64,000 nucleotides of DNA from Thiospirochaeta perfilievii (GTDB taxonomy: Bacteria > Spirochaetota > Spirochaetia > DSM-2461). The notes below the pieces were generated by a model. That model had not been told where the DNA came from and did no database searches. It saw only the letters and a program-made list of their open reading frames with translations. The DNA lies in assembly GCF_008329945.1 (NCBI RefSeq), contig NZ_CP035807.1, positions 3,038,001-3,102,000 of the forward strand, given 5' to 3'. Positions 17,469-25,274 of this stretch are shown one piece after another; position 1 is the stretch's first letter; each line of letters begins with the position of its first letter. Position numbers and translations under genes: made by a program.

Positions 17469-20162
17469 TTAAAAATTATATTTATCTATTGAATCAATTC
17501 TGTAGTTAAACATTCGTTCGTTAATTTCGAAACTAAGAACATCTCCTACTACATGACCTAAGAGTTCAGCTCCTAAAGGAGACATATATGATATAATTCT
17601 ATTAGAAGGATCTGATTCCCATGTACCAAGTATTATATAGTTCTCATTCTCATTTGAATCAATGTTATGTAACATAATAGAAGTACCAAAAGATACTTTT
17701 GAAGAATCAACACTATCAGGATCAACAATTTTTGCTTTACCAATCTCTTCTTTTAATCTACCAATTGTTATATTAAGATTTTCTTGTCTCTCTTTTCCTG
17801 CTTTATACTCAGCATTCTCTTTAAGGTCTCCCATCTCAATTGCAATACCAATCTCCTTAGAGTTTTTAGGTATTTCAACATCTAAAATATGTTTAAGTTC
17901 TTTCTGCTTTTTAGCATAACTCTCTTCTAAGCAGTATAGACCCCTTGCAGAAGAGAACGTTTGTTCCACATCTTCTTCTCCATAAAACTTCATCTTAGGG
18001 AATTTTAAAGCAATCTTATCTTTTAATCCTAATCTAATTGAAGGATCTAACTCCTTAACATCATTAATAATACTAAATAGTCTAGCTACTTCATCTTGAT
18101 CAAATTCGTCTATGAAAGTATTAATTCTACCCTCTTTAAATAGGAAGCTTAATATCTGTCTATTGTACTTTCTATTATTAGCAGCGTCTTTTTTATTTTC
18201 AATATCCCTATAAGTCACTCTTAATAACTGAATAAGATTAACTAAAAGTTCACTATAACTTATATCTAGTTTTTCATACCAGTTCTCTTCATCAGCATTT
18301 CTAGCAAGCCAAATTAGAGACTCTCTGAACTCACGATGGTGGGTTATAATATCTTTAAAAAGAGAGATAACTCTATCTTTATGTCCAGTATGAATAAGTA
18401 CTTCTACAGTGTGTTTATTTAAGTAGTATGGAAATAGGTTTACAAAAATATCTACCCAATCTTCACAGTTAGTTCTTATAAGTGAGAGAAAATCCTTCTT
18501 ATAATCAGCTAATTTTATATTAGAGAATAGTTCTTCTAATTTTTCAATGTCATCAAAAAGTTCATTAAAACTATAGTTAATGCCTGGGTTTAAAAATGGA
18601 TAAACCTTCATTATATTATTAACAAAAATATAACTTGTTACTACATACTCATTCACATTTGCTGTATTTAAGAAAGATGTGAAGTATGAGAACATCTCTC
18701 CAAAAAATTCAGAATCTGGATCAGAGTTTTCTAAAAACTCATTAATAACTTCAAGTCTATTAAAGAACTTTGAGTCAGCTCTAAATTTATTGTATGCTTT
18801 TTCCTCATATGATATAGGCTTATCTCTAACAATAAATTTATCAAGGTTATCAGGTAGGTTACCAAAGCTTGAATCAGTTTTTAATGTTTTTCTAGCCTCT
18901 GCACCCCAAGTAGTCCACTCACCTGGAGTTAACACAGAAGGTACAAGTTCAGCTTTAATTTTTTTCATATCAGCTGATTCAAAACTATTAATAATTGTAG
19001 TTAAAGCCCATTTTACATCACCTTTAACTTTTGCCTTTAATTTATCCTTAGCAATAACACCTTTTAATACCCAAATGTGCTTTTTATTTAAACTTGTTAA
19101 AGAGTTCACAGCCATTTTTAGAGACATTGAATGGCCTCTTTTTTTAACAAAATCAATAATGATATTATCACCATCGATATTTTTAATTACCCCAATATCC
19201 CATGTTCTATGGTATACAAAGTTTCCAGCATCAAAGGAGATATGTTTTTCAAAATCTGATATTGCATCGTGAACATGTCTCCAGCCTTGGCTTAAATTAG
19301 ATAATCTTATATATTCGTCAAGATGACTATTATCAGAATATTTATTTTTAAAACAGTTAGTTATCTCTTTTCTTGCCCAACCATATTTAGGATCTAATAT
19401 AAGAATCTTCTTTAAAATTATTATACATGTATCCCAATCTTCTTCTTCATTAAATTTAGGATAGAGTTCTTCTAAAAGAATAATTGATTTTTCAGCACCA
19501 ATTATTTTTGTGTTTTTATTTGCTACATGAATAAAGAAATCAATATCAGTATGGCAATACTCGACTAATTTACTCCAAATTTCACCAATATTACCAACCA
19601 TTTTTTTGTTAATATATCTGTAAATAGCTTTTTTATAATAGCTAACGGCATGGTCAATATCTCCAGCTTCTTCCTTAGCAATAGCTAGTTTTTTAATAAT
19701 ATCAGCTTCTTCATAATCAATTTTGATTAATCTTTCCCATACAGCGTATAAATTTTCTTTATCATTCTCTTGAGTATAGTATTCTGCTAAAGTTTTTAAT
19801 GCTTGTTTATTCTCACCAAACTCTAATATTTTGTCGCATAAGTATTTAACAATATTCCACTTAGAATTTTTCACGAAGATATTAATTAAGATGATAAAAC
19901 TAGTATCATCAACAAGTTGAGTTTCTAATGAAATCATTCCTGATAAATAAAGTGCAATTAAACTATTTTTAGAACCTTCTAAGTGTTCATTTGTTAGCTC
20001 CATTGCTTCATCCGCTTCATTGTTTTCCGTAATTTCTTCTAATAAATCATTTAGGATATTAAAATTACTAATGCTCCAAGATGCAATACCGCTTCCAGTC
20101 CATTTTTCTTCCTTAAGCATATCGCTTAATTTATTAATAGTTTCACTCATCTTTAAAAACAC
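17469..20162 (-). CDS. greA: Transcription elongation factor GreA with long TPR-like N-terminal extension
   Basis: 897 residues. The last 155 or so are a complete GreA: an N-terminal coiled coil with GDLKENAEYKAGKERQ, whose acidic tip (Asp and Glu) promotes RNA cleavage by backtracked RNA polymerase, and a C-terminal FKBP-like domain with SPLGAELLG. GreA alone is normally about 160 residues. The first 740 residues are helical with TPR-like units in the first third (ADIIKKLAIAKEEAGDIDHA). Similar large GreA proteins are annotated in Borrelia, so this is a spirochaete architecture. The downstream gene on the same strand starts from its own promoter; the TPR gene upstream (20169-21146) is 6 bp away and co-oriented. 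Confidence 0.93.
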   Translation of the reverse strand: MFLKMSETINKLSDMLKEEKWTGSGIASWSISNFNILNDLLEEITENNEADEAMELTNEHLEGSKNSLIALYLSGMISLETQLVDDTSFIILINIFVKNSKWNIVKYLCDKILEFGENKQALKTLAEYYTQENDKENLYAVWERLIKIDYEEADIIKKLAIAKEEAGDIDHAVSYYKKAIYRYINKKMVGNIGEIWSKLVEYCHTDIDFFIHVANKNTKIIGAEKSIILLEELYPKFNEEEDWDTCIIILKKILILDPKYGWARKEITNCFKNKYSDNSHLDEYIRLSNLSQGWRHVHDAISDFEKHISFDAGNFVYHRTWDIGVIKNIDGDNIIIDFVKKRGHSMSLKMAVNSLTSLNKKHIWVLKGVIAKDKLKAKVKGDVKWALTTIINSFESADMKKIKAELVPSVLTPGEWTTWGAEARKTLKTDSSFGNLPDNLDKFIVRDKPISYEEKAYNKFRADSKFFNRLEVINEFLENSDPDSEFFGEMFSYFTSFLNTANVNEYVVTSYIFVNNIMKVYPFLNPGINYSFNELFDDIEKLEELFSNIKLADYKKDFLSLIRTNCEDWVDIFVNLFPYYLNKHTVEVLIHTGHKDRVISLFKDIITHHREFRESLIWLARNADEENWYEKLDISYSELLVNLIQLLRVTYRDIENKKDAANNRKYNRQILSFLFKEGRINTFIDEFDQDEVARLFSIINDVKELDPSIRLGLKDKIALKFPKMKFYGEEDVEQTFSSARGLYCLEESYAKKQKELKHILDVEIPKNSKEIGIAIEMGDLKENAEYKAGKERQENLNITIGRLKEEIGKAKIVDPDSVDSSKVSFGTSIMLHNIDSNENENYIILGTWESDPSNRIISYMSPLGAELLGHVVGDVLSFEINERMFNYRIDSIDKYNF

Positions 20163-21929: not shown

Positions 21930-22823
21930 ATGTCTTCCAATAAAATTTTGATAGTTTTTTATATAATAATAATGTCAAATTTTTGCTTTGCAGAAGTTTT
22001 AGTTGATAATGATATGGTAAAAGGGATAGATTACTATTCAAAAAAGAGTTACTTAGACTCTGTATACCATTTTAATTTAGTTATAGCAAAGAATAATAAA
22101 CTATTAAATGAGGCTTACTATTGGAAGGCAAAAGCACTGTATGAGTTAAACCTCTATGATCAGTCTAAAAGTACCCTAGAACTTTTTTTTAGAAAAGCTA
22201 CAATTCAAACTTCATATTATGAAGACTCTAGGTTTTTATATTGTAAAATTTTCTACAAATTAAAAAAGTATGATGATGCTTTACTACTGTTTAATCAGTT
22301 TACTAGAAATAAATCATTTAATTTTTATGCTAATGCAGCTATATTTTGGATTGGAGAGACATATTTACAACTCTCTAACTTAAAATTAGCTAAAAAGTCC
22401 TTTGAACAGTACCTAAAAATATATCCTGATAATAAGATTGCTCTAAATAGGATTACTAATATAGATAATATTTTATCTATTATGGAAAAGAAGAATTCAT
22501 CAGATAAAATCACAACTCTAGATAAGGCTTCATGGTTATCTGAATATGTCTCTATTGAGCAGAAAGAGGCAACTAATTCAGATAAAAAGTACATATCAAA
22601 TTTTTTAGATAGCTTTGAAAATAAGGATGAGTTTTTCGATTGGTTATCAAAATACTACTTAGTAGATAAAAAAAATGAAAAAAGTAGTGATAAAGAGAAT
22701 ATAATTAAAGTAGAAGATAAGTCTGATAAGCCTATGGAGAGTAGTGAATTAGATTATATAGAAAAGGCTCTATTAGATGAACTAGAAATGAAAGTTTTAG
22801 AAGAGTTAGGAGTTTCAAATTGA
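21930..22823 (+). CDS. Exported TPR-repeat protein
   Basis: 297 residues. The first 22 form a signal peptide ending NFCFA. TPR-like units follow at about residues 35-165 (NEAYYWKAKALYELNLYDQS, FKLKKYDDALLLF, EQYLKIYPDN). The C-terminal third is low-complexity Lys/Glu/Asp/Ser. It overlaps the next start by 4 bases (TTGA). Likely periplasmic, perhaps a scaffold; no specific function can be given. Confidence 0.75.
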   Translation: MSSNKILIVFYIIIMSNFCFAEVLVDNDMVKGIDYYSKKSYLDSVYHFNLVIAKNNKLLNEAYYWKAKALYELNLYDQSKSTLELFFRKATIQTSYYEDSRFLYCKIFYKLKKYDDALLLFNQFTRNKSFNFYANAAIFWIGETYLQLSNLKLAKKSFEQYLKIYPDNKIALNRITNIDNILSIMEKKNSSDKITTLDKASWLSEYVSIEQKEATNSDKKYISNFLDSFENKDEFFDWLSKYYLVDKKNEKSSDKENIIKVEDKSDKPMESSELDYIEKALLDELEMKVLEELGVSN

Positions 22824-24169
22824 AAAGTAAAATATTTTTACTATACTTACTTATAACTATATCACTATTTTCTGAGTCAAATATTCTAGAAAATTCCAGT
22901 TTTGGAATTAAAGAGAGTAGGGATGGGTACATTGATTTATATTTAAAAGGTAAAAGTAGTGAGATTACTACAGTTTTAGACTCTGTAAACTACCTTAACT
23001 CCAGGATTTATATAAAAGACAGCGATAAACGATTTTATTTAAGGGATAAATCAAAGTTCGCCATTACCGTAAGTGAAAATCAGTTTGAAATAAAATGGAG
23101 ATCTGACTCTGCTGATGTTATTGAGATATATAAAATTAACAATCTTGGGTTTGACTACTCTATAGAGTTAATAAATAGAACAGATGTAAATAGAAATTTT
23201 GGAATTTATTTAATGTACGATACTTATTTTGGGGAAGATAGTCATGAGCATTTTATTGTTAATGATGATAAAATTGTTAAATATGAGAAAACATATAATA
23301 ACTTAGAGGTTCCTTTCTCTATTAAGTCTAAAAATGAAAGAGAACAGTTTATTGAGTTTAGATTAACAGATAAAGGATTCACTAAACCAGATAGTGTAAT
23401 TCTTGGAAATTGGGATCGTTTAGCCTTTAGTAAAAAGTGGCCATATATTCCTAAGGCCGGAGGATTATTCTCCTATGGTTATTACTCGATAAATGACTCT
23501 GGGATAGGTTTGGTATTTAATGGACAGTATATAGAGCCTAATGAATCAGTTGTCTTTAAATTTGGGATAAATCTTGTATCAAATAAAATAGTTAATAAAG
23601 AAAAAACTACAATTGTTAAAGAAAAGAAATGGATAACCCTAGAGAGAGAGAACGATCTACAGGCAGATGATAAAGTCGTAGAAGATAATGTAGTAGAAGA
23701 TAATATAGTAGAAGATAATATAGTAGAAGATAATATAGTAGAAGATAATATAGTAGAAGATAATATAGTAGAAGATAATATAGTAGAAGATAATATAGTA
23801 GAAGATAATATAGTAGAAGATAATATAGTAGAAGATAATATAGTAGAAGATAATATAGTAGAAGATAATATAGTAGAAGATAATATAGTAGAAGATAATA
23901 TAGTAGAAGATAATATAGTAGAAGATAATATAGTAGAAGATAATATAGTAGAAGACAATATAGTAGAAGACAATATAGTAGAAGATAATATAGTAGAAGA
24001 TAATATAGTAGAAGACAATATAGTAGAAAATAAAAAAATAAAAACTGATAAGGAAGAACTTCTTTTAATGCTGGAATATATTCAGAAGAAAAAAAGAGGT
24101 GAGGATGTATCAGGATATAATTTTAATGAAGATGACATCTTAGAGAAGCTGAAAGAGAGAAATGAGTAA
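22820..24169 (+). CDS. Exported protein with 23 tandem EDN(I/V)V pentapeptides
   Basis: 449 residues from a TTG that overlaps the previous stop. Signal peptide at residues 1-18 (MKSKIFLLYLLITISLFS). Residues 25-265 form a beta-rich domain with SFGIKESRDGYIDLYLKG near its start, unknown to me. Residues 288-402 are 23 copies of EDNIV or EDNVV encoded by a 15-bp tandem repeat, then a short helical tail. The acidic repeat could be an extended, hydrophilic spacer. Copy number changes would keep the frame. The opposite strand is also open through the repeat, an artefact of its composition. Confidence 0.8.
   Translation: MKSKIFLLYLLITISLFSESNILENSSFGIKESRDGYIDLYLKGKSSEITTVLDSVNYLNSRIYIKDSDKRFYLRDKSKFAITVSENQFEIKWRSDSADVIEIYKINNLGFDYSIELINRTDVNRNFGIYLMYDTYFGEDSHEHFIVNDDKIVKYEKTYNNLEVPFSIKSKNEREQFIEFRLTDKGFTKPDSVILGNWDRLAFSKKWPYIPKAGGLFSYGYYSINDSGIGLVFNGQYIEPNESVVFKFGINLVSNKIVNKEKTTIVKEKKWITLERENDLQADDKVVEDNVVEDNIVEDNIVEDNIVEDNIVEDNIVEDNIVEDNIVEDNIVEDNIVEDNIVEDNIVEDNIVEDNIVEDNIVEDNIVEDNIVEDNIVEDNIVEDNIVEDNIVEDNIVEDNIVENKKIKTDKEELLLMLEYIQKKKRGEDVSGYNFNEDDILEKLKERNE
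23681..24025 (+). repeat. 15-bp tandem repeat, 23 units, in frame
   Basis: The unit GAAGATAATATAGTA repeats 23 times with no indels. Unit 1 has GTAGTA in place of ATAGTA, and the units starting at 23951, 23966 and 24011 have GAC for GAT. The rest are identical, indicating recent expansion or homogenisation. 15 bp keeps the reading frame. Confidence 0.97.
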
Positions 24170-25274
24170 GAAGCCAAAAGAGATAAAGTTAGGACAGTTA
24201 TATTTAAATAGAGGAGAGTATTCAAGGGTTATACGTCTATTAGAACCTAAAGTACCTCTTTTCTTGGAAAATAAGGATTTCTACCCAATTTTAGGTAAAG
24301 CCTTTTTTTATACTGGAGATTATGCTGGATCGAAATTGTATTTTGATAGAGGACAGAAAATCCATTGGGATATTGAGAGTTCCCTCTATTTAGCTGTTTT
24401 AGGGCTAAAAAGAAGGGATTTTAATAGTGCTATTAGAATTTGGTTAGATATTCTAGATGAAGACCCAAGTAATAAAATTGCACAAAAAGGTTTAACAACT
24501 CTTAAAAAATACTCTACTATGGATGATCTAGAGAGCTTTATACACTCAAAAAAGCTAGATAAATTAGTTCCAAGAAAATTATTGCTACCAACTAGAGGTA
24601 CAATTGTTTCATTAATAATAGTCAGTGTATTAGTTTTATTCTCAGTTCTGTTTGTAAAACTAGATTTAGCAGAACACTTTATAAATCTTAATATTTCAAA
24701 AAATAATTTAAATGAAGATCGTGTAGGAGTTATGGATTTTAGTCTAGAGAGCTTAGATAAGAACTATTTAGACTTTGAAAAACAATCCATTTATACTTTT
24801 AGTAGTGCACAAATAGAAGAGTACTTTAAAACAGCATCACTACTGTTTAAGCAAGAGAAGGATAATTTAGTTCTTAGTTACTTGAATCTTATAAAGTATT
24901 CAAATGCAAATGAAACAATAAAGAAAAAGGCTGAACTTTTAAGTGGTTATTTAGTTGAACCTGAATGGACTAGTTATTCTGATGAAATAGAGTATTTTGA
25001 TGTAGCAAACAATATATATCAGTATGAAGGTTGTATTGTAAAGTGGAAAGGCAGATTATCAAATCTAGAAATTAAAGATAAAAAAATACACTTTTCATTT
25101 CTTGTAGGTTATGAGAACGGTAAAGTTCTAGATGGTGTAATTCCTGTAGAGTTAAATGAAAATGTTAAGATTCAAGAGAATCAACCTATTGAAGTATTAG
25201 GAAAAGTTGTTCTTAGAAACAACACTTTTTACCTTGAAGCAAAAACTGTAATGCAGTACATAGTTAAAAATTAA
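24162..25274 (+). CDS. TPR-containing single-pass membrane protein
   Basis: 370 residues. TPR-like helices fill residues 10-120 (LGQLYLNRGEYSRVIRLLEP, LGKAFFYTGDYAGS). A single membrane helix lies at about 147-168 (TIVSLIIVSVLVLFSVLF). The remainder appears to be outside the cytoplasm, ending with a beta-rich module with CIVKWKGRLSNLEI. The start overlaps the end of the repeat gene by 8 bp, and dtd begins on the base after its stop. Orientation predicted: N-terminus in the cytoplasm. Function unknown. Confidence 0.75.
   Translation: MSKKPKEIKLGQLYLNRGEYSRVIRLLEPKVPLFLENKDFYPILGKAFFYTGDYAGSKLYFDRGQKIHWDIESSLYLAVLGLKRRDFNSAIRIWLDILDEDPSNKIAQKGLTTLKKYSTMDDLESFIHSKKLDKLVPRKLLLPTRGTIVSLIIVSVLVLFSVLFVKLDLAEHFINLNISKNNLNEDRVGVMDFSLESLDKNYLDFEKQSIYTFSSAQIEEYFKTASLLFKQEKDNLVLSYLNLIKYSNANETIKKKAELLSGYLVEPEWTSYSDEIEYFDVANNIYQYEGCIVKWKGRLSNLEIKDKKIHFSFLVGYENGKVLDGVIPVELNENVKIQENQPIEVLGKVVLRNNTFYLEAKTVMQYIVKN

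Follow-up and report, generated by a model that had tools for sequence, protein, structure and literature searches.

A young in-frame minisatellite that probably encodes an acidic spacer in a putatively exported protein of Thiospirochaeta perfilievii

The host gene and its neighbourhood

The window analysed here is a stretch of 64,000 nucleotides of the Thiospirochaeta perfilievii genome (contig NZ_CP035807.1, positions 3,038,001 to 3,102,000 of the forward strand), and positions given below refer to it unless another contig is named. On its plus strand, from 22820 to 24169, lies an ORF of 449 amino acids with a TTG start; it shares 4 nt with the ORF upstream and 8 nt with the one downstream. 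Both neighbours belong to the same operon and their order is kept in four relatives: upstream a TPR ORF (21930-22823, plus strand; Pfam TPR_6, 34.6 bits) and downstream a TPR-like ORF (24162-25274, plus strand) whose Pfam TPR matches stay below the cut-off. The longer series rpe-like/TPR/host gene/TPR-like/recA-like is retained in all four relatives compared (G001, G002, G005 and G050), with a dtd-like ORF between the TPR-like and recA-like ORFs in three of them, the exception being G005. The neighbours that we take to be rpe, dtd and recA, like the L20 gene mentioned further below, were labelled by recognition. Elsewhere in the window, on the minus strand from 17469 to 20162, a protein of 897 amino acids has a C-terminal GreA/GreB domain, preceded by a long N-terminal stretch in which TPR matches are weak.

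The N-terminus of the host protein (22820-22879, plus strand) resembles a signal peptide, as judged from its sequence and from the N-termini of the orthologues, which by eye and by hydropathy have Lys and a hydrophobic segment in common. No lipobox cysteine was seen, and the protein is probably exported. The host protein stays below the cut-off of every Pfam and NCBIfam family, the sole Pfam match being zf-CRD at 14.5 bits below the cut-off, and a sequence search of the PDB gave no chain below E 0.025 and two weak matches, both at the tail end. Orthologues were detected in 60 of 118 relatives by a single-protein search and in 63 of 118 by a profile search; a single-protein search of the named genomes found no relative. 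The orthologues share a layout of signal-peptide-like N-terminus, beta domain, linker and short helical tail, and the host gene is a member of a spirochaete family without a name, situated in a conserved operon. A possible link to the flagellar collar was probed through co-occurrence with FliF: the host gene occurs in 58 of the 94 genomes with FliF and in 5 of the 24 without (Fisher p 0.00045, uncorrected for relatedness). The association is loose and confounded by kinship, with exceptions in either direction: G110, a 99% complete genome, has the gene and gave no match to FliF, and in 36 genomes FliF is present without the gene.

An AlphaFold2 model of the window protein, built from 73 sequences, is confident over residues 20-255 (for the most part above pLDDT 80), leaves the array without structure at values below 50 and ends in two helices in the tail; a model of the orthologue from the congener G002 (MAG SZUA-382) shows the same arrangement of domain, unstructured array and tail helices. 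According to AlphaFold2, Foldseek and VIA-align, residues 19-256 (22874-23587, plus strand) would form a beta domain of the galactose-mutarotase-like supersandwich kind. The modelled domain superimposes on 3q1n with Z 16.9 and an rmsd of 3.0 over 204 aligned residues, and Foldseek lists a lactose phosphorylase first (E 7.4e-08). The same fold is found in 3q1n, 3nre and GalM 4bze (Z 16.4-16.9), from which the host protein differs by an identity of 7-13% among the matches listed and by its extra linker and tail. The Pfam aldose 1-epimerase model is not among the 24 families listed at E 0.1 for the 73 members, and the shared mutarotase-like fold predicted here would not by itself indicate a function. 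The C-terminal tail, with modelled helices at residues 399-425 and 437-448 (24014-24163, plus strand), is kept in both congeners.

The VEDNI array

Between the domain and the tail, the Tandem Repeats Finder (TRF) reports a 15-bp array from 23678 to 24033 on the plus strand (ORF residues ~287-404), with 23.7 copies, 98% matches, no indels and a score of 677; 60 first-order Markov sequences of 64 kb reached 80 at most. The unit GTAGAAGATAATATA is read as VEDNI in the frame of the ORF. A preliminary description had counted 23 units with four base differences between 23681 and 24025, which is exact according to both TRF and the unit table. One departure, A to G at 23690 in the first unit, changes Ile to Val, and the remaining three (T to C at 23956, 23971 and 24016) turn GAT into the synonymous GAC near the 3′ end. 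The same description was right that changes in unit number keep the frame, the unit being 15 bp long. These are head-to-tail, near-identical units with a period that is a multiple of three, inside a gene, as is proper to a coding minisatellite. The other two forward frames contain a stop in each unit and all three reverse frames are open; we judge an antisense ORF of 178 amino acids (23482-24018, minus strand) to be a by-product of the absence of minus-strand stops from the unit.

A whole-genome search with a 27-base pattern covering nearly two units, and allowing up to 3 mismatches, gave 23 matches, all of them inside the array, so the VEDNI unit is absent elsewhere in the genome. A mobile or copied unit was considered and rejected, as the unit occupies a single genomic site and units differ between loci and, at a given locus, between species. 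A literature search for tandem repeats of Thiospirochaeta found no publication on this array.

The identity of the units exceeds what the amino acids demand. Of 115 codons, no more than 3 differ from the majority of their column. Each of the five codons in the unit could be replaced by a synonym, and 20,000 simulated draws of codons at the frequencies of 25 ORFs in the window gave 40 departures on average and never fewer than 23. With about 40 departures expected, the array was expanded or homogenised recently, as amino-acid selection alone does not yield such codon uniformity. The preliminary description had spoken of recent slippage, of which the recent duplication is supported; as to the route, slippage is indistinguishable here from unequal recombination, and either may have been used. 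Slippage is named among the origins of low-complexity regions in a survey of prokaryote proteins (PMC6821194).

The linkers of all three Thiospirochaeta species are net negative and are classed as disordered by the charge-hydropathy boundary, a weak measure because it classes the tail, modelled as helical, in the same way. The low pLDDT of the array is likewise weak evidence of disorder since it may merely reflect a lack of aligned sequence. That the EDNIV stretch acts as an acidic spacer, as had been proposed, is supported by its composition and by both structural models, that of the window protein and that from G002.

Arrays in congeners and elsewhere in the genome

Among 61 orthologous ORFs from 60 genomes scanned with TRF (those of G025, G046 and G112 being partial, and those of G013, G049 and G087, found by profile only, lying outside the scan), two contain an array, namely the window ORF and that of G002; the scan was repeated ORF by ORF. 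The G002 array consists of 21.0 copies of an 18-bp unit with the word SS[VI]KE[DN], so that the species differ in the unit itself, beyond the unit number. The second congener, G001 (MAG ZodW_Metabat.93), has a Pro/Glu-rich linker and no array. The linker measures 130 residues in the window protein, 133 in G002 and 48 in G001; the short, array-free linker of the last indicates that neither the array nor its length is essential in the genus. Identity of the host protein to the two congeners is 46% and 49%, and that of the RecA-like neighbour 92% and 89%. A second scan covered 80 loci from named genomes, part of 88 that encode a relative and overlapping with the 61 ORFs; a long array was found only at L075, which is G002's own contig, and the others had at most 3.3 copies. 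An array as a feature of the whole class was rejected on these counts (2 of 61 ORFs; 1 of 80 loci). The arrays of the two congeners may represent independent births or a single ancestral array whose units were completely turned over.

The genome has several coding arrays of this sort, the VEDNI array among them. We sampled 864 kb, or 23% of the genome with the window counted in, and met three coding loci whose arrays have at least 8 copies, all acidic: the VEDNI host gene, flcA and a gene with EELDEV repeats. The acidic region of flcA (L168 19092-19455; G000:C1 2,639,092-2,639,455) consists of 20.2 copies of an 18-bp unit, DEIDNL, and the product scores 47.8 bits with NCBIfam FlcA_NTERM (cut-off 28) and, as a truncated sequence, 216 bits with FlcA_CTERM (cut-off 300). 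In Borrelia, FlcA is a periplasmic collar protein (PMC8609358). Its T. perfilievii counterpart resembles the VEDNI host in having an acidic array with other units in relatives, although the two proteins are unrelated. The flcA gene of G002 has 9.1 copies of an 84-bp unit, those of G005 and G020 have arrays of other units and that of G009 has none, and the visible part of the G001 gene, cut by a contig end, holds a weak 9-bp repeat only.

The EELDEV repeats (18 bp, 9.4 copies; L212 16355-16826, G000:C1 2,366,355-2,366,826) follow a membrane/sensor-like N-terminal part in an open frame of 857 amino acids. In G002 and G005 the repeat word of this gene is of the same kind, which shows that units are not replaced everywhere. 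A fourth array, VEDTE/VEDTV (15 bp, 23.8 copies; L176 1474-1830, G000:C1 3,015,416-3,015,772), lies outside the window in an ORF of 272 amino acids with a coiled-coil-like start, which adjoins an L20-like ORF; it was met in a search with the VEDNI unit and is therefore not an unbiased find. The array of the L20-linked ORF in G002, made of a different 15-bp unit, runs to 16.2 copies or more, being stopped by a contig end; in G001 this ORF has 5.8 identical VEDEI units up to a contig end, and the orthologues of G003, G005, G009 and G020, outside the genus, have no array. In Oceanispirochaeta crateria K2 (G005, 400 kb sampled) we found 35.4 copies of a 15-bp EPLDE unit (L234 29-559; C1 3,100,029-3,100,559). 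Not all such linkers are acidic, since G002 has a PTTTT array (15 bp, 12.4 copies; L265 10999-11184, G002:C10) in an open frame of 822 amino acids.

Repeats of other kinds were also noted. Three (3.1) copies of a 194-bp unit, 100% identical, stand beside a 5S rRNA gene (L206 1168-1763; G000:C1 1,271,168-1,271,763); they are not tandem 5S rRNA genes, as Rfam places the 5S gene beside the triplicate, overlapping its edge only. Pairs of tRNA genes are repeated in near-identical tandem copies at L170 482-1054 (250 bp, 2.3 copies) and L172 5134-5490 (186 bp, 1.9 copies), both on G000:C1. In G002, L258 18984-19972 (G002:C3) is CRISPR-like, with repeats ~60 bp apart that have a 28-base part in common and spacers that are unlike.

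Origin and possible role of the array

The array lies between two conserved parts of the protein, is recent, keeps the frame and is built from a different unit in a congener. In our reading it is probably a young coding minisatellite which encodes a flexible acidic spacer and is rebuilt by in-frame duplication. The array links the mutarotase-fold domain to the conserved helical tail, and short duplications, by slippage or by unequal recombination, would survive because the linker is disordered, selection seeing mainly whether it stays in frame and unstructured, how long it is and how negatively charged. We infer this disorder, the spacer role and the selection on length and charge; that length, charge and frame seem to outweigh the exact sequence is suggested by the sister species having built its linker from another word. 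An altered unit number would alter the reach between beta domain and tail. The weakest steps, both speculative, are that the domain would bind a glycan or a protein in the periplasm and that the tail might dock to a partner, for which either of the adjacent TPR proteins would be a candidate.

An assembly error, the real unit number being much smaller or larger, had been named in the preliminary description as a collapse or expansion that would speak against the array. Three array or acidic-repeat loci of the draft congener genomes do stop at contig ends, which tells us that repeats of this kind break assemblies. However, T. perfilievii P has a closed PacBio genome (a chromosome of 3,667,739 bases and a 32,844-bp plasmid, in total 3,700,583) sequenced to 177x from subreads averaging 10,188 bp (PMC7380536), and because such subreads compare with an array of 356 bp, while the interior GAC variants anchor its 3′ part, an error of this sort is most improbable and the array length credible. 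It is also quite unlikely, if somewhat less so, that the repeat folds, into a pentapeptide-type beta-solenoid or an assembling acidic sheet with a binding function of its own. The strict five-residue period and paired hydrophobics of the sequence would suit such a fold, and the Arp repeats of T. pallidum were modelled as possibly within a charged beta sheet (PMC9531955), but the host protein has no match to the Pfam pentapeptide-repeat model, the structural model shows no secondary structure in the array, and the six-residue word of G002 would not keep a fold of this type.

A more serious rival, although one we still hold to be rather unlikely, is neutrality: the array would be a passenger, a duplication product that the linker tolerates and whose length and charge bring no advantage. 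Its youth, the lack of an array at this site in G001 and the absence of arrays from 59 of the 61 scanned orthologous ORFs would all agree with a passenger. Against this, G002 has an array at the same place with a linker of nearly the same length (133 versus 130 residues), and two more array genes of the genome, flcA and the L20-linked ORF, are also arrayed in G002 with other units. A broader proposal, which we regard as tentative and somewhat doubtful, is that several disordered, mostly acidic linkers of the genus, that of flcA included, are repeatedly erased and remade from new units. If true, orthologous linkers would keep their frame, charge and rough length while fresh arrays replace their sequence, in a recurrent process of linker renewal of which the VEDNI array would be one instance and not an isolated oddity.

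The best-known near-perfect coding repeats of spirochaetes are those of arp and tp0470 in T. pallidum. According to PMC9531955, arp (tp0433) has a 60-bp and tp0470 a 24-bp coding repeat, the latter C-terminal to TPR domains in a protein with a predicted signal peptide, strain variation is documented for both, and the roles of the repeats are called as yet undetermined. Like the VEDNI array they are near-perfect, in-frame repeats of highly charged words in spirochaete proteins; they differ in belonging to other proteins, in their periods of 60 and 24 bp versus 15 bp and in that the VEDNI host domain is mutarotase-like, and whereas variation among strains is on record for them, the VEDNI array is known from one genome of its species. 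The VEDNI array is a further case of a known kind of repeat gene, and the exchange of units at one orthologous linker is worth following. With it, a cultivated, free-living spirochaete joins T. pallidum, the species from which such repeat genes are best known, and it points to a conserved, nameless spirochaete protein of predicted mutarotase-like fold, flanked by two TPR proteins. With two species, unrelated words and a near-equal linker length at one site of one protein, nature has here repeated the test of which properties of a disordered linker are visible to selection.
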